Positions 6,882-57,442 of a stretch of 57,881 nt of DNA are shown here, piece by piece; the first letter of the stretch is position 1, and each line of letters begins with the position of its first letter. The notes beneath the pieces were generated by a model, which saw nothing but the letters and a program-made list of their open reading frames with translations, ran no database searches and was not told where the DNA came from. This stretch comes from Pseudomonadota bacterium. Its GTDB lineage: Bacteria; Pseudomonadota; Gammaproteobacteria; Berkiellales; Berkiellaceae. Where the stretch lies: assembly GCA_018242045.1 (NCBI GenBank), contig JAFECR010000029.1, forward strand, positions 29,371 to 87,251, read 5' to 3'. A program made the position numbers and the translations under genes.

Positions 6882-6929
6882 TTGTTGACTTTTTTTAAGT
6901 AAGCACTGTATATTTTTTCTGTCAACAAT
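6882..6929 (+). promoter_or_regulatory. Perfect 9-bp inverted repeat framing the promoter of the double-glycine peptide
   Basis: ATTGTTGAC at 6882-6890 and its exact complement GTCAACAAT at 6921-6929 are separated by 30 bases. The left arm overlaps the -35 box; the right arm lies near the expected transcript start. This placement suits an operator bound by a looping or dimeric regulator. A stem in the transcript is unlikely, because the left arm lies upstream of the start. Confidence 0.5.
6885..6914 (+). promoter_or_regulatory. Sigma-70-type promoter for the 73-residue peptide gene
   Basis: TTGACT at 6885-6890 and TATATT at 6909-6914, spacing 18, are close to consensus. The peptide's AGGAG ribosome site and ATG at 6945 follow about 30 bases later. 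Confidence 0.6.
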
Positions 6930-6944
6930 AAAAAGGAGCAAAAT

Positions 6945-7166
6945 ATGTTGAAATTGACCGATAAACAGTTAATCGAAGTTGCTGGTGGGTGCGATCTTAC
7001 TTGCAAGGAATCAACTCTTGAACTTTTGTTTAGCTGTGATTTAGAAACGATGTATTTCGTAAATACCATTTTTAAGACTGTTTTGCATCGTGAAGAATTG
7101 CAAGGTGCTGATGAAGCAACGATTAAAGCTGCATTGATATATGCGGTGCGCAATACGTACTTTTAA
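6945..7166 (+). CDS. Small peptide with double-glycine (bacteriocin-type) leader
   Basis: A 73-residue peptide whose first 15 residues, MLKLTDKQLIEVAGG, match the class II bacteriocin/NHLP-type leader consensus (LTDxELxxVxGG). In that family a C39-peptidase ABC transporter cuts after GG and exports the rest. The predicted 58-residue core carries Cys at 16, 20 and 31 and a mixed amphipathic C-terminal half ending in AALIYAVRNTYF. Expression signals are strong: a near-consensus promoter, AGGAG seven bases from the ATG, and an inverted repeat around the promoter. No processing transporter, immunity gene or modification enzyme is in the window, so activity is unknown. It could be an antibacterial peptide, a signal or a host-directed peptide. 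Confidence 0.75.
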   Translation: MLKLTDKQLIEVAGGCDLTCKESTLELLFSCDLETMYFVNTIFKTVLHREELQGADEATIKAALIYAVRNTYF

Positions 7167-7253: not shown

Positions 7254-7556
7254 GTGGCAAACGATTTTGAGCAAACACTAACCCAAACCGGATCAAAAGC
7301 TAATTGGATCAAAGGTTTGTATATTCTGGTATTTCTCGTGGCAAGCTATATTGCCATTTTTGTAACATTTTTTGTCGTGTTGTTTCAATTTATAGCGGAG
7401 CTTATTTTTAAAAAGCCTAATCATCACTTGCAGCATTTTGGTGATACTTTAGGTCTTTACGCTTGTGCGGTTATTCGCTATATCACTGGCGCAACAGACG
7501 ACATGCCTTTTCCTTTCAAAGCCTGGCCTAAAGGTTCTCATGAAAAGCACAAGTAA
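7254..7556 (+). CDS. DUF4389 small membrane protein
   Basis: A 100-residue protein with one long hydrophobic stretch at about 20-52 (GLYILVFLVASYIAIFVTFFVVLFQFIAELIF), a soluble middle (HHLQHFGDTLGLYACAVIRYITG) and the family-typical end MPFPFKAWP. These match DUF4389, a small inner-membrane family of unknown function. The start is GTG at 7254, nine bases after AGAGG. The stop codon lies within the stem of a strong terminator, so it is not co-transcribed with the efflux operon downstream. Confidence 0.8.
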   Translation: MANDFEQTLTQTGSKANWIKGLYILVFLVASYIAIFVTFFVVLFQFIAELIFKKPNHHLQHFGDTLGLYACAVIRYITGATDDMPFPFKAWPKGSHEKHK

Positions 7557-20115: not shown

Positions 20116-21882
20116 ATGTTTAAATTATCAGATTATTTTAGCATCATAGGTTATCTCATTTTAATTTTTTTGGCCCAAGGCGTCAGTGCTCATATGAATT
20201 CTGCATCACAAAGCAAAGCGAAATTATCCGAAATTGCATCTCAGTACGAAAAAGCTTTTTTCGAGCGAAACCCAGAGCTTGCGCTTTTTTGGGGTAGGAA
20301 TGATGCTGCCTTGGATAGGTTTATTGATAAAAGCCAAAAAGCAATAGCTGCTTGGCAACGAAAGGAAGACAATTTTCTAAAAGAACTCAATGCAATTGCT
20401 GTTGCAGATCTTTGGGGAACCCCTGAATTTCATACTTATCAATTATTAAAGCAGACATTAGAAAATGAACAAGCTATTCGGATCTGTAGAGATGATCTTT
20501 GGGCCGTGAACCCTTTATGGGGTTGGCATATCATGGCAGGCATTATGGCAGAAAAGCAACCGGTAGGCACGCCAGAAAACCGTCTTTTAGCAATAGCAAG
20601 ATGGCAGACTTTAGGAAAATTGGTAGATGATGAAATTACGAATCTTAAATTGGGAGTAAAAGAGGGTTATTGTGCCCCTAAACCTGTGGTAGAACGTGTT
20701 ATTAAACAACTTGCGCTTATCAAAAATTTACCGATTGAAGATTCTCCTTTTTTTGAATTTGCAAAACGTGATGGTGATATTGAATTTAAAAAACAAATTG
20801 CCCTTATCATTGAACAAACGATTAATCCAGCTTTGGTTCGTTATGCTGCCTATTTACAAAATGAATATTTACCAGTAGCTAGAACTAAAGTAGGTGTTTC
20901 TGCATTGCATAATGGAGAGCAATGCTATAAAGCTAAGATCCTTAAAGAAACCACTTTATCGATTCATCCCGATTCAATTTTTGAATTTGGTAAAGCGCAT
21001 ATGCAGCAACTTGAAAGAGAAGTTGCTATCATAGGCCAGCGGAAGTATGGCATAAAAGCAATGTCTGATGTTTTTAAAGAGGCTAAAAAGCAATCGTTAA
21101 ACTTTTTTAAAAGCGAACAAGATATTATCGATTATAATCAAGCAGCACTTATCAAAGCCAATGCAAAAATAGAAACATGGTTCGATTTCGTTCCTAAAGC
21201 ACAAGGGATTATAAAACCTTACCCGTTGCATCGCGCTCAAACGGGAGCAGCAGGGGAGTATCATCCGCCAAGTGAAGATGGCCAAAGGCCTGGCATTTTC
21301 TACATCAACACCTATCAACCTCAAATGAAAAGTCGCATTGATCAAGAGGCAACTTTATTTCATGAATTAGTTCCAGGGCATCATTATCAAATTGCACGCC
21401 AACTTGAAAATTCACACCATTTAAATATAGATAAATATTTATGGAATGCCGGTTTTGGCGAAGGCTGGGCTTTGTATTCAGAGCGCTTAGCAGATGAAAT
21501 GGGTTTGTATCATGATGATGTTTCTCGTTTAGGGATGCTTTCGAATGAAGCTTTAAGAACGGCACGTTTAGTGGTTGATCCCGGATTGCATATGCAAAAC
21601 TGGAGTAGGCAACAGGCGATAGATTATCTTAAACAACACACGGCAATGGAAGAACACATCATTGAAGCTGAAGTTGATAGGTATATTATGATGCCAGGAC
21701 AAGCAACTTCTTATATGTTAGGTAAACGTGAGATTGATAATTTAAGGACATTAGCCAAATCAAGATTGGCCGATAAATTTGATATTCGACAGTTTCATAA
21801 TCAAGTGTTAAAAAATGGTACAGTGACATTGCCTATGCTTCGCTCTCAGATTGAAGCATGGCTCAAAGTCGCTAGCCCCTAA
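20116..21882 (+). CDS. DUF885 family metallopeptidase-like protein
   Basis: A 588-residue exported protein with a signal peptide of about 25 residues (IIGYLILIFLAQGVSA). DUF885 proteins resemble M32/M2-like zinc peptidases. The zinc motif is HELVPGHH at 416-423, followed about 35 residues later by GFGEGWALYSERLADEMG, which supplies the glutamate ligand, and near the end MPGQATSYMLGKREI. All are intact, so a periplasmic zinc peptidase is likely, with unknown substrates. Start ATG at 20116. Its stop overlaps the stop of the convergent ankyrin gene by four bases. Confidence 0.85.
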   Translation: MFKLSDYFSIIGYLILIFLAQGVSAHMNSASQSKAKLSEIASQYEKAFFERNPELALFWGRNDAALDRFIDKSQKAIAAWQRKEDNFLKELNAIAVADLWGTPEFHTYQLLKQTLENEQAIRICRDDLWAVNPLWGWHIMAGIMAEKQPVGTPENRLLAIARWQTLGKLVDDEITNLKLGVKEGYCAPKPVVERVIKQLALIKNLPIEDSPFFEFAKRDGDIEFKKQIALIIEQTINPALVRYAAYLQNEYLPVARTKVGVSALHNGEQCYKAKILKETTLSIHPDSIFEFGKAHMQQLEREVAIIGQRKYGIKAMSDVFKEAKKQSLNFFKSEQDIIDYNQAALIKANAKIETWFDFVPKAQGIIKPYPLHRAQTGAAGEYHPPSEDGQRPGIFYINTYQPQMKSRIDQEATLFHELVPGHHYQIARQLENSHHLNIDKYLWNAGFGEGWALYSERLADEMGLYHDDVSRLGMLSNEALRTARLVVDPGLHMQNWSRQQAIDYLKQHTAMEEHIIEAEVDRYIMMPGQATSYMLGKREIDNLRTLAKSRLADKFDIRQFHNQVLKNGTVTLPMLRSQIEAWLKVASP

Positions 21883-21909
21883 TTGCTTAGTTTTTTTCTA
21901 GGGGTTAGC
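21871..21909. terminator. Imperfect inverted repeat at the shared 3' ends
   Basis: GCTAGCCCCTA (21871-21881) and TAGGGGTTAGC (21899-21909) pair with one mismatch, across the convergent, four-base-overlapping stop codons. A run of seven T lies in the loop, with a mini-stem CTAA/TTAG just before it on the plus strand. It may serve as a terminator, though the form is not standard. Confidence 0.4.
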
Positions 21910-24203
21910 AACAGAACATCATTCATAATGCTATGATTTTGTTCTTTTGCCGACAATCCTGCGTAGTAATCTCTAAAATAGCAAATGGCATTTCGATTAA
22001 TGCAGCTTTGTTTTTGCGCTTCATAATAATCACAGGCAAGAATCCCTGTTTTAAAAGCGTCAATGCTATTGGGCGCTAAAGCTTTAATTTGCTCCTCATC
22101 TTTGCGCGCGTAGGATTGTAATGCCGTATTTTTAATATGTTCTCTTCCAATAACAGCCATTAGGAACAGGGTGGTTGAAATAAAACTCAAACTGGTTAAA
22201 GGTACCTGCGCGTTTAAGAGCAAGCCTATGGAAATTAAACAGATTGCTACTAAGGCCTTAACCGCTATTTGCTTGGGATTTGTTTGCTTTAGGTGTTTTA
22301 CTTGATAATGGATTGTATCCATAATCGCATTATTTTTAAAATACGTTTGTAAAGGACTTTCTTTTGCAGAGTATGTTGTTAAGGAGGTTGAATTAAATGA
22401 GTTGTTTGCTAGGCCATCGATTTGCAAGTTGGCTATTTTAGCGTCTTCTTGCTGACGGAAGATTTCGGTATTGCCAATCAGCCAGCGATATTTTAAAAAA
22501 TATTTTTTCAAATCGTAACCCGATTTAGCTTCAAATTTATGATTATGATTATCGTAAATATTATAAAGATGTGATTTTAAGGCCATTGAGAAATTATCTA
22601 ATTCAGCGGATTTATGGTGAAATAAGTTTTGTCCCGAAGTATTTTTTTCAAGCTGCATGGCGCAGATCATTTTTGCATGTTGAGCAAGCCCTGCAAAAAC
22701 ACTGGTTTGATTTTTTTCCCACATTTTACACAGTTGATTGATAATTTCCAAAGTATATAATGCACAATTTTGATCAGAATTATATGTTTGCGCATCTATG
22801 CTAACATTAAAAAATGGTGCAGGCTTTACGTAGCTATATCCACGGTTAAATAAACCTAAAGCTGTCCCATATTTAAAATCATTATTGGATGTGTTAATAT
22901 AAAAATGCCCAATAGGTTTTTTCAAAGTGGTGTCAATAATTGTCAGCAAAGGATAAATATGGCCGTCTTTAGTGATTGTGCTTAAAATATAAGCAAAACC
23001 CTGTTGATCAGCTCTTAAACTGAAATCCCTTGAAAACTCAAGTAGCTCTGAGAGGCAATTATGCAAATCTTTCACACAGTGAATATACAGCTTGGTTAAC
23101 CTATTGCAAAAAGTAAAATTACCTGACAATTCCTTTAAAGTACTCAATGTTGTCTCTTGAAATGTCCCATCATCATAAAATTCACTTGCTTTAACTGAAG
23201 CATCACATGGTGAGTAACGATAGGGAATAAATTTTTTAGTGTTGGACAGGGCGCTATATAATGCGATTTCATTTTGACAAAGCATGCTTAGAAGTGTACC
23301 TTCCAATGCAAAATCCGAACGCCTTAAATAATCAGTTGCTTTTAATTCCCAAAAAGCAGGTTGGCTTAATGATATTTTTCCAGCAAGTGAGCTTGGGATT
23401 CGATCTTTAAATGTTGTAAAGGCATTTTCGGTAGGCCAGAATATTGTATCAAATGATAAATTGGCCGCTTTTAGAAATTCAATGCTTGCTAATTCAAAGT
23501 CGGTTGCTGTGGAATTGGGATATTTTTGATTAAGCGTTTTTACTATCTTGGCAAGATGTTTTCTATATTCTAACAATCCTTGCACTGTCTCTTTATCGCG
23601 ATTAGGAATATTGAGATCGGCATGATATTTAAGCAATGTTTGTGCCATTGACCAGTTTGAGGCGTTGATTGCCTCATGCAATGCTGTATTTCCTTGATCG
23701 TTTTGCGCATTGATGGTAGAAGACGTCAAAATAAAATTTTTAATTTTACTAAATGCGTTATTAAAGCGTGGATTAGCTGCAAAATAATGAAGTAAGGTGC
23801 TATTTGAAGATAATGTAGCGACGCACTGGTTTTTAAGAGCACTAAGCAGGGTTATGCTCTCAATTTTTTTGTTGCTTAGGCCCTGAACAAGATAATCACC
23901 ATAAATGCTATCATTTATCAGCATTAAGGTGATGCTACGTTCTCCGATGAAAACTTCAGGCAATTCTAACCATTTTTTTGCTAACTCATGTTCTTGATAC
24001 ATTATTGCTAAATCAAGAATGTTAAATCCGGCTATACCTTGACAGATATCTTGACAAACATTTTGCTGGAAAAATTGAGTGCTTATTTGCTGTTTGAGCA
24101 CATCAGCAAACAATTCTTGAAATAATAAAGGTCTAAAAGGCACAGCCTCATTGACAAATCCTCTTCGTGTATATGCAATAAAATGCTGATGCTTCAACCT
24201 CAT
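21879..24203 (-). CDS. Large ankyrin-repeat protein, candidate host-directed effector
   Basis: A 774-residue protein. Ankyrin-like repeats lie at about 150-215 (NAQNDQGNTALHEAINASNWSMAQTLLKYHADLNIPNRDKETV). The middle (about 350-500) is a separate globular domain. It holds H415 in GHIYPLLTIID and DAQTYNSDQNCALYTLEII with Q472 and C480, an arrangement reminiscent of CE-clan (Ulp1/YopJ-like) cysteine proteases or acetyltransferases. Near the C terminus (about 655-700) are two adjacent hydrophobic segments (VKALVAICLISIGLLL and LTSLSFISTTLFLMAVIG), probably a membrane hairpin. No signal peptide; AAAGG seven bases upstream of the ATG. Ankyrin plus membrane hairpin is common in Legionellales type IV effectors. 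The enzyme idea is only motif-based. Confidence 0.75.
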   Translation of the reverse strand: MRLKHQHFIAYTRRGFVNEAVPFRPLLFQELFADVLKQQISTQFFQQNVCQDICQGIAGFNILDLAIMYQEHELAKKWLELPEVFIGERSITLMLINDSIYGDYLVQGLSNKKIESITLLSALKNQCVATLSSNSTLLHYFAANPRFNNAFSKIKNFILTSSTINAQNDQGNTALHEAINASNWSMAQTLLKYHADLNIPNRDKETVQGLLEYRKHLAKIVKTLNQKYPNSTATDFELASIEFLKAANLSFDTIFWPTENAFTTFKDRIPSSLAGKISLSQPAFWELKATDYLRRSDFALEGTLLSMLCQNEIALYSALSNTKKFIPYRYSPCDASVKASEFYDDGTFQETTLSTLKELSGNFTFCNRLTKLYIHCVKDLHNCLSELLEFSRDFSLRADQQGFAYILSTITKDGHIYPLLTIIDTTLKKPIGHFYINTSNNDFKYGTALGLFNRGYSYVKPAPFFNVSIDAQTYNSDQNCALYTLEIINQLCKMWEKNQTSVFAGLAQHAKMICAMQLEKNTSGQNLFHHKSAELDNFSMALKSHLYNIYDNHNHKFEAKSGYDLKKYFLKYRWLIGNTEIFRQQEDAKIANLQIDGLANNSFNSTSLTTYSAKESPLQTYFKNNAIMDTIHYQVKHLKQTNPKQIAVKALVAICLISIGLLLNAQVPLTSLSFISTTLFLMAVIGREHIKNTALQSYARKDEEQIKALAPNSIDAFKTGILACDYYEAQKQSCINRNAICYFRDYYAGLSAKEQNHSIMNDVLLLTPRKKLSN

Positions 24204-37712: not shown

Positions 37713-37802
37713 CTTATTTTGTTTAACTTTCAGAAAATTGTATTTTAAAGAAAGTCTGCGTAGACTATTGAATAATTACACATTAAATAAAAGGGAATGA
37801 AC

Positions 37803-38750
37803 GTGTTAAAGAAAGGTCCACATGCTAACAAATCTGGTCCAGAACTATGTGAAGAAGCAAGAAAAAAGATTAAAAAAGATCCTGAAAGTGGGTTTAAGTT
37901 ATATCAAAAAGCAACGGAAATTGATAGAAATTTTGCACCGGCATGGGTTGGTTTGGGTTTTTGTTATGAGTTTGGCAAGGGTACGACAATAGATTATGAG
38001 AAGGCTCATTTGAACTATACGCGAGCCATCAAGGAAGATTCAAAATGTGCAAAAGCATTGTATAGATTAGGTGTTTTGCATCACGATGGAAAATTTGTGA
38101 AAGAAGATATAAAAGTGGCTCTTGACTACTACAAAAAAGCAACTGCAGCAGATAAATATGTTGCGGCTTGGTATAGAAAGGGCATTTGTTATCATAAATC
38201 GGCCTCAGAAAAGTCTTTAAAGAAAGGATTCGAATGCTTTAGAAAAGCAGCATATTATTTCCCTAATCATATCCCCTACTGGGAAAAGCTAGAAAATTGT
38301 TATAGAAATGGGATAGGCACAGAAGTTAATCCTAAATTTGCTGAATTTTGCCGTAGCAAAATTTCTGATATTTCATCACAAGTACCACTTGAGAAAGAAA
38401 AGGTTATATTAACGAGAGAAAACGAAATGCTTCAGAAATCAATAACACTTAGTGCAGAAATAATTCAATGTAATGCGGCAGATAAAGATAGAATAATAAA
38501 AAACTTAACAGCCCAGTTGAAGAGTGAATTTGAAAAAATATTAAAACAGAAAGATGAAGAGATCAAAAAATTAAAAGAGCTAACGTCCTTCGAACTTGGA
38601 TTTAATATTACTGATTCTTTAGACCAACAGGGTTTTCTATCTGATATGCAAGACCCTTTGACAGTAATGTATGAGCAAACGTCTTCGGATGTTAATCTTA
38701 TAAGCGATGAATCATCAATAGTTTCGCCTAACCCAGCCATTAAAATTTAA
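37803..38750 (+). CDS. Sel1-like repeat protein with C-terminal coiled coil
   Basis: A protein of about 315 residues. Four Sel1/TPR-type repeats fill the first 180 residues. Their signatures are APAWVGLGFCYEFGKGTTIDYEKA, AKALYRLGVLHHDGKFVKEDIKVALDYYKKA, VAAWYRKGICYHKSA...ECFRKA and IPYWEKLENCYRNGIGTEVN. A charged coiled coil follows at about 205-270 (EKVILTRENEMLQ..., LKQKDEEIKKLKELT), then an acidic Ser-rich tail. GTG at 37803 has AGGGA six bases upstream; ATG at 37797 is also in frame but abuts the ribosome site. Sel1 proteins mediate protein contacts, and several Legionella ones affect host trafficking. Cytosolic or translocated; no signal peptide. Confidence 0.78.
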   Translation: MLKKGPHANKSGPELCEEARKKIKKDPESGFKLYQKATEIDRNFAPAWVGLGFCYEFGKGTTIDYEKAHLNYTRAIKEDSKCAKALYRLGVLHHDGKFVKEDIKVALDYYKKATAADKYVAAWYRKGICYHKSASEKSLKKGFECFRKAAYYFPNHIPYWEKLENCYRNGIGTEVNPKFAEFCRSKISDISSQVPLEKEKVILTRENEMLQKSITLSAEIIQCNAADKDRIIKNLTAQLKSEFEKILKQKDEEIKKLKELTSFELGFNITDSLDQQGFLSDMQDPLTVMYEQTSSDVNLISDESSIVSPNPAIKI

Positions 38751-44354: not shown

Positions 44355-44556
44355 ATTAATAATTATCTAATAAAAAACAGTTAAAAATACTTAAAGTCTA
44401 GATTAATTGCCAAGCAGTGAAAAGTGAATGATTTATCAGTGTCATTTCAAAATGATATGCAGGATAAATGAACAGGTATTAGCGTTATTGACAAATTTGA
44501 CAGATAATGTAAATTTGTAAACTCTCGTATCTAAAAACACACAAAAGGAATTGCAA
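44355..44556 (+). promoter_or_regulatory. Intergenic region with possible patatin-gene promoter and inverted repeat
   Basis: TTGACA at 44488-44493 and TAAATT at 44510-44515 (spacing 16) form a plausible sigma-70 promoter. CAAATTT (44492-44498) and AAATTTG (44511-44517) form an exact inverted repeat with a 12-base gap over it. AAAGGAA, the ribosome site, is at 44544-44550. The gap size equals that of the tetR operator candidate, but the sequences differ in part. Confidence 0.4.
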
Positions 44557-47085
44557 ATGAAAACTGGCACTCATAAAAATCAAGCAAAAACAAATGTTAT
44601 TGAAGTAGAAGATGAAGTTCTTGTCAAAAAAATTGAGAATTTAAATATTCTGGAAAAGAAAAGTAATGATGATTTTGTTAATGTTCAACAATTGCTCGAT
44701 ACCGAAAAGACCATCAAACTGTTTAGAAAAACTTTTGAAAATACTAAAGAGGATTGCGTTCCTTTACCGCCTATAAAATATCTTGCTTTCCAAGGCGGTG
44801 GTGCTAAAGGAACTGCTTATATTGGCGCAATTGAAACCTTAGATGAACAAGGGTATTTAGAAAGTATTGATAAAGTTTGCGGCGCTTCAGCAGGAGCAAT
44901 AACTGCTTTTGTGGTTGGCCTTGGCTTTGATAGTAAGCAATTTAAACATATTCAAGAAAATATGAATTTTCTCGATTTTACAGATTTAAAAAATCATGGT
45001 TGGGGAGAATTCTTTAATGGAAATACTCTAGGAAAAGGATTGGATGTTGTACGATATGGCGCTGCTTTTGATGGAAATGCCTTTCACCATTGGGCAAGTT
45101 TTATGGTGGAACAAATTCTTGGCGACAAAAATGCTACTTTTCGTGAATTACATGAAAAGAAAAAATCTGATCCAACCCTTAAAGATCTTATTTTTAAAGC
45201 AACGCGTTATAACGCAGCCAATCATGCCCAAGCTGAACAAACATTTTCCTTTGAAGAAACGCCAGAGGTTTGTATTGCAGATGCCTTAAGAGCATCGATG
45301 GCTTTTCCTGTTGCCTTTAAACCTTGGAAAGTAAAACAAAAAGAGTTTAATAAGAATGCAAATGATAAAAGTTACAGTTTAGAAACTTTTGGTGTATTTG
45401 CAGATGGCGGAATACTAAATAATTACCCAATTGATGTATTTAACTCGCAAAGCTATTATGATGGACAATATTTACCAGTTGAGCGAAAAGATCATAATGG
45501 TAAACCAATAGAAATTAATCCTTGCGCACTTGGATTTAGTTTAACACCACTTAAACATTTAGATAATAATATAACACCGATGACACAACGCCTCATTCAA
45601 CTTCAAAATAAAGAACGTTCTTCTGAAGAACAAACATTAAAGGATACTAATTCATCTTGGGGTTATCAAGACTTATGGAATGTTTTATGGTGGACAAAAG
45701 TTGGCCAAAATCAAGTATCTAAACCAAGAGATAAACACGAAACATATCATGATCAGACTGTGCAAATCTGGCCAGAAAATGTTGAAACATTAGAATTTGA
45801 TGCCTCTAAAGAGAAATTAAATAGTATTAAAACAAATGGCCGTCTTGCTATGCAGTTATGGATAGATAAATTTAGGGATTCAAAACAAGCTTACCAACAC
45901 TTAATGTATTTTGATGATAGACTCTCAAAACAAGAACTTCGTTTAAGAGTGGTGGATCCTGTTAAATTTTATCTAACAAAACTGGAAGAGCATTTTTTAT
46001 CTTTTATTGGTGAACTACAAAGAGAGAATAAAATAAGTTTAAATGGTATTGATAAATTATCTAATATTAAATTGCAGTATTTAACTTATAAGATAAATGA
46101 TTTAATAAAAGAAGGAAAGTTGGATGAATTAACTGTGAATAATACGTTAATGTCTGCTTTTAATAAGTTTGTTCAACGTCAACAAAAAATAAATTTAGAA
46201 CGAAAAAAGCGTGATAATCTTACATATAATGTAGGGTTGATTGAAGAGCTGCATTCAAAAATTCAGAACTTTCCTGATGAGGTTTGCAGAATGTTGTCTG
46301 GTCAATTATCTAATATATTCCCTCTTATGCAGCAAGTTCATCAAAGTCGAAATTTATTAGGTGTATTAGCACAAAGCAAGGATGTTAATTTAATAGCAAA
46401 TGTTTTTGAACTCATGCTTGAAAGATTAAAGCAGTGTCATTTTCAAGGCAGAGTTGGAAATGTAAAAGAGGAATTTATTAAAATCTTGAATCATGCTAAA
46501 CCATCTATTTGCGTGGCTGCTGTTGATAATGATGAACTTCTACAAATTTTCAACAAACATGGATTAAATCCTTTGCAAGTAAATAAATTGTCTGGTTTAA
46601 ATGCATTACAAGAAACTATTAAAAATGGTGATTTTTCTGCTTATAAAAAACTGATTCAATTTTGCCATCTCAACAAAATTCCCTTTAAAGAAAAAAACCA
46701 TAAAATACTAAGTTTTATGCTTTCACATGCATCAGCACACTTTATACGACAAGTATTTGAAGACAAACAGTTGTTAAAACGAATTACCAATGATCATTTT
46801 GTACAATCTTGTGGTAATGATGTGTTTGAATTTTGTTCAAAGCTATCCTTTTTGGCAGATGAAACGCTAGATGATGATATTGCTGTACAAGACGATATGA
46901 TGACAAAACTTAAAACAATATTGCAAGAGCCTGCACCTTGTGCTCAAGTCGAAATTGTCAATGTTGGCAAAAATCTTCACTTTATGCAGCCAAAAGCAAA
47001 GCAGCAATTGTATAATTCTAAGCAAAATGAAAAAGTACAAACTATTGATTCGTCCATTAAAGAATATAAAGTATGCAGGATGTAA
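44557..47085 (+). CDS. Patatin-like phospholipase with long C-terminal extension
   Basis: An 842-residue protein with ATG at 44557, six bases after AAAGGAA. The patatin domain spans about 70-330: oxyanion loop GGGAKG at 80-85, nucleophile elbow GASAG with S111, and catalytic D283 in DGGILNNYP. All catalytic parts are intact, so phospholipase A activity is likely. The remaining 500 residues are helical and unrecognised, with a short ankyrin-like unit (KHGLNPLQVNKLSGLNALQETIKNGDFSAYKKLIQ). Lack of a signal peptide, large size and patatin core recall VipD-type type IV effectors of Legionella; secretion is not shown by the sequence. It is followed by a strong terminator. Confidence 0.88.
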   Translation: MKTGTHKNQAKTNVIEVEDEVLVKKIENLNILEKKSNDDFVNVQQLLDTEKTIKLFRKTFENTKEDCVPLPPIKYLAFQGGGAKGTAYIGAIETLDEQGYLESIDKVCGASAGAITAFVVGLGFDSKQFKHIQENMNFLDFTDLKNHGWGEFFNGNTLGKGLDVVRYGAAFDGNAFHHWASFMVEQILGDKNATFRELHEKKKSDPTLKDLIFKATRYNAANHAQAEQTFSFEETPEVCIADALRASMAFPVAFKPWKVKQKEFNKNANDKSYSLETFGVFADGGILNNYPIDVFNSQSYYDGQYLPVERKDHNGKPIEINPCALGFSLTPLKHLDNNITPMTQRLIQLQNKERSSEEQTLKDTNSSWGYQDLWNVLWWTKVGQNQVSKPRDKHETYHDQTVQIWPENVETLEFDASKEKLNSIKTNGRLAMQLWIDKFRDSKQAYQHLMYFDDRLSKQELRLRVVDPVKFYLTKLEEHFLSFIGELQRENKISLNGIDKLSNIKLQYLTYKINDLIKEGKLDELTVNNTLMSAFNKFVQRQQKINLERKKRDNLTYNVGLIEELHSKIQNFPDEVCRMLSGQLSNIFPLMQQVHQSRNLLGVLAQSKDVNLIANVFELMLERLKQCHFQGRVGNVKEEFIKILNHAKPSICVAAVDNDELLQIFNKHGLNPLQVNKLSGLNALQETIKNGDFSAYKKLIQFCHLNKIPFKEKNHKILSFMLSHASAHFIRQVFEDKQLLKRITNDHFVQSCGNDVFEFCSKLSFLADETLDDDIAVQDDMMTKLKTILQEPAPCAQVEIVNVGKNLHFMQPKAKQQLYNSKQNEKVQTIDSSIKEYKVCRM

Positions 47086-55574: not shown

Positions 55575-57263
55575 TTAGTGCCTTGGTCTTATAGTAAAAT
55601 TCTTTTTAATTGACTCAAATACTTCTTCTTTAGCCTTCCTGCGAGCCTCACCTTTAAGCCATGCAATATTCTGACAAGTGTTATGTTTGAATATTTTAAA
55701 TTGAATCAATTGTCCACGAGAAGATATCTTGTTTTCATGAACTTGTAAATCTTGGATAAAAGCTTTACCGGTTGAAGTGGTAAAATTTTTTGTTACCGAA
55801 TAAAATGATTTGTCATAGGATTTTTTATATTGATAAAGTCTGAGTTCACAGTATAGGAGACGAAATATATGGGCAATTTTATTTAAGATTAGCGTTGCGG
55901 CTAAACCTGTTAGTATTGACACCACCATCAAAGCTGTTTTTGTCGTAGACAGAGTAATGCCTACCTTAAATAATAAAGCTGCGATAGAAGAAAAACCGCC
56001 ACATAATGCAACAATTAAAGTTGTAATGGTAAAGCATCCCAACAATGCTAATTTAAACCTCAAGAAGTGGTGCAAAGGCGCTGGGAACGCTTGCATATTA
56101 AGTGTTTCGGTAACCCAAGACACACCAAATTTTCTTTTTAAGCTGTTAGGAATATCGGTAAGAAAATTTGCTTTACATTGTATAGAGCGTAGATTCTGAC
56201 AATTACCAAGAGACTCAGGTAAAGCCTGCAATAAGTTGAAGTCGCAAGTTAGATGCCCTGCAAGAGATTTCGGCAAGGTATATAGGTGGTTATTGCTGCA
56301 ATTTAGCCACAATGACAGACACTTACCAAGTGATTCAGGTAGAGTCAGCAAATGGTTGAAATTGCAATCTAGTTCTCCTAATGCTTCGCAATTACCAATT
56401 GATTCTGGTAATCCTTTTAGCTCATTGAATCCACAGCGTAGTCTGCGTAGTTTTTTACAATTGCCAAGAGTTTCAGGTAAATTACGCAGTTGATTACGAT
56501 CACAACAGAGCTCTTGTAACTCCTGGCAATTACCTAAAGAATTTGGCAATGTTTGAAGCCTGTTGCTAGAACAATATATCTGTTCTAACGCCTTGCAATC
56601 ACCAATAGACTCTGGCAGATTTTTTAAATCTGTATGTGAACAATATAGCAATCGTAATGCTTTGCAAATACCAAGTTGTTTTGGCAGGGTTTTGAGCATA
56701 TAAGCTTCACACCATATCTTTTCTACAGTTTGCCAATAATTTTGATATTTTTCATTGATAAATAGCCTATCTGGAAATCGTGTTATGTATTTGGAACAAT
56801 GTAGCTTTGTGCTGTTAACATTAATGCAACTAACAATCAATGCTTCATTTAAACGCTCAAGGGCATGATGCCTGTTTTCTAATGCTGTAAGGTTAATGTT
56901 GTGTTTGCAAGCATCGTTATTTTGTTCTACTAAATAGGTTATTTCTTTAAGAACGTCTGGGTTAGATGGTAGTTTGTTCGCTTTTTCTAAAAAATGCTTT
57001 ATCTCCTCTTCTTGCTCCTTTGCAATGCGTTTAAATTCACTTTTAAATTGCACAAAGCACCAATCCTCACTTGAATTCTCAGGAGATACTGCACTAACCG
57101 TATTATCAAGTGCTTTAAGGCGTTTTAAGTAGGGTATAACGATTGTATTTGATGTGGACGCTTCATTGAATATCTTACAGGTGGCTCGCAATGCAAAAGC
57201 CTCTTCTTGTGAGAGAAAAGTGAAGATTTTACTAATAGGATCTTTACTTAAATAATTAAGCAT
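55575..57263 (-). CDS. F-box-like, leucine-rich-repeat membrane protein, candidate effector
   Basis: A 562-residue eukaryotic-like protein. Residues 3-36 (LNYLSKDPISKIFTFLSQEEAFALRATCKIFNEA) fit the F-box pattern, which in eukaryotes recruits SCF ubiquitin ligase. A helical region follows (40-150), then seven to nine leucine-rich repeats at about 185-390 with unit LPESIGNCKxLxxLxCxxNxL (for example ALEQIYCSSNRLQTLPNSLGNC). Two hydrophobic segments near 405-460 (LALLGCFTITTLIVALCGGFSSIAALLF, ALMVVSILTGLAATLIL) may anchor it to a membrane. The basic tail is soluble. ATG 57263 and TTG 57269 are both possible; no ribosome site is obvious. F-box plus LRR fits Legionella effectors that capture host ubiquitin ligase; secretion is unproven. 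Confidence 0.8.
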   Translation of the reverse strand: MLNYLSKDPISKIFTFLSQEEAFALRATCKIFNEASTSNTIVIPYLKRLKALDNTVSAVSPENSSEDWCFVQFKSEFKRIAKEQEEEIKHFLEKANKLPSNPDVLKEITYLVEQNNDACKHNINLTALENRHHALERLNEALIVSCINVNSTKLHCSKYITRFPDRLFINEKYQNYWQTVEKIWCEAYMLKTLPKQLGICKALRLLYCSHTDLKNLPESIGDCKALEQIYCSSNRLQTLPNSLGNCQELQELCCDRNQLRNLPETLGNCKKLRRLRCGFNELKGLPESIGNCEALGELDCNFNHLLTLPESLGKCLSLWLNCSNNHLYTLPKSLAGHLTCDFNLLQALPESLGNCQNLRSIQCKANFLTDIPNSLKRKFGVSWVTETLNMQAFPAPLHHFLRFKLALLGCFTITTLIVALCGGFSSIAALLFKVGITLSTTKTALMVVSILTGLAATLILNKIAHIFRLLYCELRLYQYKKSYDKSFYSVTKNFTTSTGKAFIQDLQVHENKISSRGQLIQFKIFKHNTCQNIAWLKGEARRKAKEEVFESIKKNFTIRPRH

Positions 57264-57442
57264 AAGCAATTACGGCACAAATATAGTTAAGAAGATTAAC
57301 ATTATATCAACCATTACATAATGGATCAAATGCATATGCGGTCCAAAAGTTTCGAACTAAAGTCTAGCCTATTGTTAATTCCAGGTTGTATTCCACATTT
57401 GCTGAAATAAACATTATCGCAGCGATAATGTTTTGTTAGCCG

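Follow-up and report, generated by a model that had tools for sequence, protein, structure and literature searches.

Export through C39-containing ABC proteins behind a double-glycine leader usually serves an antibacterial role. In class II microcins, as PMC10233263 outlines them, leaders of 15-18 residues are removed by an exporter whose Cys-His-Asp triad cleaves behind GG or GA, and by the account in PMC9746304 only ten members have been validated experimentally, mostly from Escherichia coli. Recognition by C39 domains is described in PMC6363468 as involving hydrophobic residues at positions -4, -7 and -12 before a GG, GA or GS motif. A community role is known from Synechococcus elongatus, in which four GG-motif proteins exported with C39 assistance enable biofilm formation, as PMC4997328 describes. 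The genome paper on Ca. Berkiella mentions a type I secretion set and, generally, bacteriocins. In the literature on Berkiella, Legionellales and amoeba symbionts and on bacteriocins, microcins and C39 exporters, no repertoire of the kind described below was reported for this group among the matches listed, which were judged mostly by title and with most subscription journals outside the scope.

We analysed a window of 57,881 nucleotides, the whole stretch of DNA at hand, from a gammaproteobacterium of the order Berkiellales. An initial annotation had singled out a short gene as encoding a peptide with a double-glycine leader and a 58-residue core carrying three Cys. Reading of the ORF bore this out: the frame runs on the forward strand from an ATG at 6945 to a stop at 7164-7166 and encodes 73 residues, 15 of leader and 58 of core. 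The features of the locus are:

6882..6928, no strand: inverted repeat with 8-bp arms, TTGTTGAC (6882-6889) and GTCAACAA (6921-6928), bracketing the promoter-like site
6885..6914, forward strand: promoter-like TTGACT - 18 - TATATT, not above chance expectation
6933..6938, forward strand: ribosome-binding site AAGGAG (GGAG), 6 nt 5' of the ATG, read from sequence
6945..7166, forward strand: precursor of the double-glycine-leader type, 73 aa, from the ORF reading and homologs
6945..6989, forward strand: leader MLKLTDKQLIEVAGG, 15 residues, with V at -4, L at -7 and L at -12 (recognition positions as given in PMC6363468; leader-profile match E 0.00185, its own sequence being one row of that profile)
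6990..7163, forward strand: core, 58 residues with Cys at positions 1, 5 and 16, predicted to fold into three helices, from sequence and predicted structure
7254..7556, forward strand: DUF4389 membrane protein, neighbour of the precursor gene (Pfam PF14333)

The gene had been credited with a strong promoter and a strong ribosome site. The ribosome site is indeed present ahead of the ATG, whereas the promoter is not above chance (1 site observed, 2.3 on average in shuffles of the region). The inverted repeat around the promoter-like site is a possible operator. As a regulatory motif shared with other leader genes it was rejected, each arm being found exactly in just two of 120 upstream regions. 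The flanking genes encode a peptide deformylase and a HAD hydrolase, both on the other strand, and the DUF4389 protein downstream. This agrees with the earlier statement that no maturation genes are adjacent; neither a modification or maturation gene nor an export gene lies next to the precursor gene, and the exporter is unlinked, on another contig. The core has a computed mass of 6,684 and a pI of 4.64, with five K/R and nine D/E residues. Its fold was predicted as three helices (pLDDT 85, pTM 0.60), for which a comparison with solved structures gave no meaningful match. The precursor matched no family of Pfam or NCBIfam at E<=10, the Nif11- and nitrile-hydratase-type leader families having been considered as well.

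The leader of this precursor alone is not decisive, because random windows reach its score: its leave-one-out matrix score was 16.9, against a maximum of 17.4 among 60 composition-matched Markov windows. The leader is placed above chance by the conservation of a family of 19 members and by a genome-wide set of similar leaders with its controls. When the precursor was searched by itself against 5.8 billion proteins, nothing but the query came back. Clear homologs emerged in G002, G004 (twice) and G013 when 36 genomes were scanned (14 of its own order and 22 of other families in the class), and the precursor's own genome yielded a weak paralog (C4:89910, E 0.17). With a profile of these six sequences, query included, we obtained 19 proteins of 73-78 aa, query and paralog counted. 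In their alignment Cys20 and Cys31 (precursor numbering) are invariant (19/19), and Cys16, the would-be first mature residue, is present in 17 of the 19. The double glycine on which the initial annotation relied is partly conserved: the Gly at -1 is kept in all 19 proteins, whereas the full GG stands in 13 and AG in the other six, so that -2 is Gly or Ala. The two entries with a source name are both from metagenome-assembled genomes (Gammaproteobacteria bacterium 39-13 and a Proteobacteria bacterium). In the order, six loci in 4 of the 14 genomes hold members of the family. The peptide diverges more than the exporter does, with 35-43% identity vs 66-84% for the exporter in the same three genome pairs. 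At one locus in G013 (L050 5558-5972), a family member stands in tandem with a second, different leader ORF, whose leader is nearly that of the family member P0008; this arrangement hints at a shuffling of leaders and cores. Beside the paralog on C4, a small ORF (L052 6263-6517) has a leader-like start with AAS in place of GG; it may be a leader in decay or one with an unusual motif.

Short ORFs with the same type of leader and unrelated cores recurred in both pattern and profile searches. The first leader pattern gave 30 matches, and these must be partly due to chance because the reversed control gave 15. A leader profile built from 29 such ORF starts and searched at E<=10 matched 26 places in this genome, the precursor included; 25 of them are short ORFs beginning with the leader, so the leader recurs elsewhere in the genome, as the initial annotation had considered. 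Across the 14 genomes of the order the profile gave 275 matches (48, 41, 36, 31, 30, 26 in the present genome, 17, 17, 11, 9, 5, 2, 2 and 0), where the counts are per-genome sums and the individual places discussed here are among the matches listed. The profile rows were drawn from seven of the 14 genomes, and four of the seven that contributed no rows still gave several matches (17 in G001, 11 in G011, 9 in G010 and 5 in G006). The genome with zero matches, G009, is 97% complete and alone among the 14 lacks an intact C39 exporter; in G005 and G012 the exporter is intact, yet each has only two weak leader matches (best E 0.23 and 0.27).

To describe these genes we used 225 loci, gathered because they matched the leader searches and therefore no census. 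They hold 120 distinct leader ORFs, whose motif is GG in 94, GA in 14, AG in 8 and GC in 4, and an SD-like site precedes 103 of them. A strongly hydrophobic 19-residue stretch is present in 59 and absent in 61; 40 are glycine-rich, and one or more Cys occur in 88. The cores form 67 clusters, and 48 of these have a single member. In the present genome the leader ORFs are mostly solitary among other genes, with few pairs (24 rows, 23 distinct ORFs). Tandem arrays occur in G013, with thirteen leader-like ORFs on contig 28 (matrix scores 8-25) and eight on contig 7. In two genomes leader and exporter are directly tied, because leader ORFs trail the exporter gene on the same strand: three in G006, the first 46 nt behind it, and three within 1.5 kb downstream in G010, where a weaker leader ORF ending in SAAG starts 81 nt behind the exporter. 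The precursor of our window is thus likely to be one of an unusually large and scattered set of secreted small proteins.

Outside the order the leader was scarce. In the 22 genomes from other families we found 12 matches, spread over 10 of them, with a best E of 0.06; eight of the 12 fall inside frames of more than 150 residues. Among 369 genomes across the class, ten had a leader match at E<=0.1: four belong to the same order, five others show a single match each, and G108 shows six. This scarcity may partly reflect model bias, because the profile was trained within the order. Strong C39 matches were found in the leader-positive outside genomes G108, G215 and G300, and only a weak one in G243; G025 likewise has a strong C39 match. 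A large repertoire is not a simple consequence of having an exporter, because three genomes outside the order (G022, G025 and G030) with C39 matches above 100 bits have one or two leader matches only. With a scoring matrix, the 205 loci outside the control set gave 193 leader ORFs (locus overlaps and the profile's own rows included) vs 0 on reversed sequence, and the 25 control loci searched with the same matrix gave no leader ORF. G108, a genome of another family (locus L227 1501-1764), combines its six leader matches with a strong C39 exporter and so represents a second, smaller repertoire outside the order.

An exporter for these leaders was sought in the same genome, and one with an intact Cys/His/Asp triad was found on contig C45, in agreement with the initial annotation, which had proposed a search for C39 transporters. 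The genome has four C39 matches, the best of which (136.7 bits) is a 704-aa ABC protein encoded at L006:4314-6428. Gln21, Cys27, His100 and Asp116 are present, so that the catalytic triad is intact, and residues 19-699 can be aligned with PCAT1 (4ry2). The protein matched NCBIfam exporter models, but with scores that do not reach their curated cut-offs. Its gene is abutted by an HlyD-type (membrane-fusion) gene at L006:3058-4314, and a TolC-type gene for an outer membrane efflux protein is also located on C45; we infer that the three products work together. The named matches of the exporter scan were from metagenome-assembled genomes, for instance that of Gammaproteobacteria bacterium 39-13 at 83% identity; no Berkiella record was among them. 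The other three C39 copies (on C1, C7 and at C45:52740) were set aside as exporters for want of the catalytic Cys. The C45 copy among these three, at a distance of about 11.6 kb from the active exporter, does pass the LssB model. A TolC-type gene and a C93 peptidase accompany it, an association reminiscent of the Lap arrangement. Over the 14 genomes of the order we counted 28 C39 matches, of which 14, spread over 13 genomes, have the full residue set. The catalytic Cys is absent in 13 of the 28, including the sole copy in G009, and a further copy, in G013, carries Ser and Tyr where Cys and His would stand.

Building on the leader, its family, the exporter pair with its triad, the TolC-type gene and the repertoire with its controls, all of which were observed directly, we propose a mechanism of export for the precursor. 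The C39 exporter of the genome would recognise the leader and cut after Gly15, and the 58-residue, three-Cys core would pass by way of the HlyD-type partner and a TolC-type channel to the outside of the cell. The roughly 26 scattered leader-bearing small genes would share this single exporter with an intact triad. The precursor has the V, L and L at -4, -7 and -12 followed by GG that characterise C39 substrates, its leader of 15 residues ending in GG has the form of a class II microcin leader, and C45 bears the export set of class II microcins, namely a C39 ABC protein, an HlyD-type protein and an outer membrane efflux protein. Against the mechanism stands the AG of six of the 19 homologs, which lies outside the GG, GA and GS motifs named in the account of PMC6363468. 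Further points against it are the two weak leader matches each of G005 and G012 despite intact exporters, the small leader counts of G022, G025 and G030, the lack of linkage between exporter and precursor gene, the training of the profile within the order, and a leader score that random windows attain. We give this mechanism, as distinct from the biological role of the core, a probability of about 80%.

The role of the core is the least certain part of our interpretation. We tentatively favour, at somewhat less than even odds, a class-II-microcin-like weapon directed at bacteria living in the same host cell or biofilm. Such a role fits the hydrophobic or glycine-rich share of the cores and their patchy turnover; against it stand the acidic core of the precursor and the lack of a recognised cognate immunity gene. 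The only small hydrophobic neighbour is the DUF4389 gene, which was not accepted as the cognate immunity gene: it is present in all five genomes of the genus, and four of these have no copy of the precursor within 1.5 kb of it. Inspection by eye of the genes immediately flanking the 23 leader ORFs showed, for three of them, a small hydrophobic gene without a leader directly downstream on the same strand, and most leader ORFs have no recognisable adjacent immunity gene. This is not fatal to an antibacterial role, because one Bacteroides group of double-glycine bacteriocins is described, in the account of PMC10233263, as being without immunity genes. At another locus (L223 653-1359, in G001) two other leader ORFs lie beside the DUF4389 gene on the opposite strand, and the place beside it is possibly a preferred slot for leader genes.

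Close behind comes a host-directed secretome, in which the export is the same and the cores act in the vacuole or nucleus of a protist. The bacterium is probably intracellular or amoeba-dwelling, judging by its eukaryote-like repeat genes and its relatives, and Ca. Berkiella is obligately intracellular according to PMC9803151. Several genes of the window touch on this way of life. The product of 55575-57269 (reverse strand) carries leucine-rich repeats (PF12799, 45.5 bits) and a sub-threshold N-terminal F-box match (17.5 bits, cut-off 20.5), and by these domains it looks like a host-interaction protein. An 844-residue protein with a patatin-like phospholipase domain (92.8 bits) is encoded at 44551-47085 (forward strand). 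An ankyrin-repeat protein (21879-24203, reverse strand) and a Sel1-repeat protein (37797-38750, forward strand) are in line with a host-associated life. These four genes count in favour of a host role, together with the 61 of 120 leader ORFs that lack a strongly hydrophobic stretch, the low pI of the precursor's core (4.64), the absence of a general pattern of immunity genes, and the large, patchy and fast-changing repertoire. The core itself, however, contains no eukaryote-like domain in Pfam or NCBIfam, the 40 glycine-rich cores are more bacteriocin-like, and the Gram-negative precedents seen for this route are microcins and the biofilm proteins EbfG1-4. We regard a host-directed role as possible but doubtful.

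Alternatively, the cores could be signalling or community proteins whose targets are cells of the same bacterium, with functions such as aggregation or the timing of its cycle, by analogy with EbfG1-4. The Synechococcus system offers a precedent for this, and immunity genes would be unnecessary. Dozens of unrelated cores per genome seem excessive for such a purpose, and their fast evolution (35-43% identity vs 66-84% for the exporter) is a further argument against it, which makes a signalling role improbable. That the precursor is an ordinary small cytoplasmic protein resembling a leader by chance is hardly credible: the random window scoring 17.4 against 16.9, the AG of six homologs and the unremarkable promoter allow it, but the -1 Gly and two Cys are kept in 19 of 19 family proteins, alike leaders precede 67 different clusters of cores, 275 matches in 14 genomes of the order contrast with 12 in 22 others, and the count falls to zero in the sole genome without an intact exporter.

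Returning to the proposed C39-dependent export, we consider it well supported that a microcin-type route has been expanded here into a scattered secretome of putatively exported small proteins. A bolder version would have the microcin route turned, in an order of protist-dwelling bacteria, into a general secretion system for small proteins, with one conserved exporter serving dozens of quickly changing single-gene cassettes in each genome, many directed at the host cell more than at rival bacteria, and thus a previously undescribed, leader-coded effector pathway; this we think rather unlikely. One small order offers 275 leader matches in 14 genomes and dozens of core clusters, with a single exporter to test them against. 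The leader provides a handle for predicting the repertoire of secreted small proteins in bacteria in which about half of the genes are hypothetical (46.5% and 51.3% in two Ca. Berkiella genomes, as given in PMC9803151). If antibacterial, the cores would be a large untried source; if host-directed, they would reveal a new route of effector secretion for an intracellular bacterium.

Among the known systems, the microcin V type (CvaB, CvaA and TolC) is similar in its 15-residue leader ending in a double glycine, its C39 exporter with Cys/His/Asp, its membrane-fusion partner and its Cys-containing core of 58 residues. The present system differs from class II microcins in having about 26 precursors per exporter, mostly not beside it, no recognised cognate immunity gene, and AG in part of the family. 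We therefore describe the precursor as microcin-like in export and do not assign it to the class II microcins, a class defined also by antibacterial activity and a cognate immunity protein. EbfG1-4 and PteB of S. elongatus, as described in the source, share the small unmodified GG-motif proteins, the C39-assisted export and the Gram-negative-type cell. However, EbfG1-4 are four proteins in one cluster, whereas here dozens are scattered over the genome, and the likeness drawn here is one of description. Prochlorosins are comparable in their many double-Gly-leader precursors per genome, up to 30 per Prochlorococcus strain in the account of PMC6363468. They are lanthipeptides modified by ProcM, in contrast to the present precursor, which has no adjacent modification gene and a leader of just 15 residues. 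LssB- and LapB-type type I ABC proteins with a C39-like domain have a related ABC architecture, and one lies about 11.6 kb from the exporter, but all 13 of the low-scoring copies in the order lack the catalytic Cys and would therefore not cut leaders.
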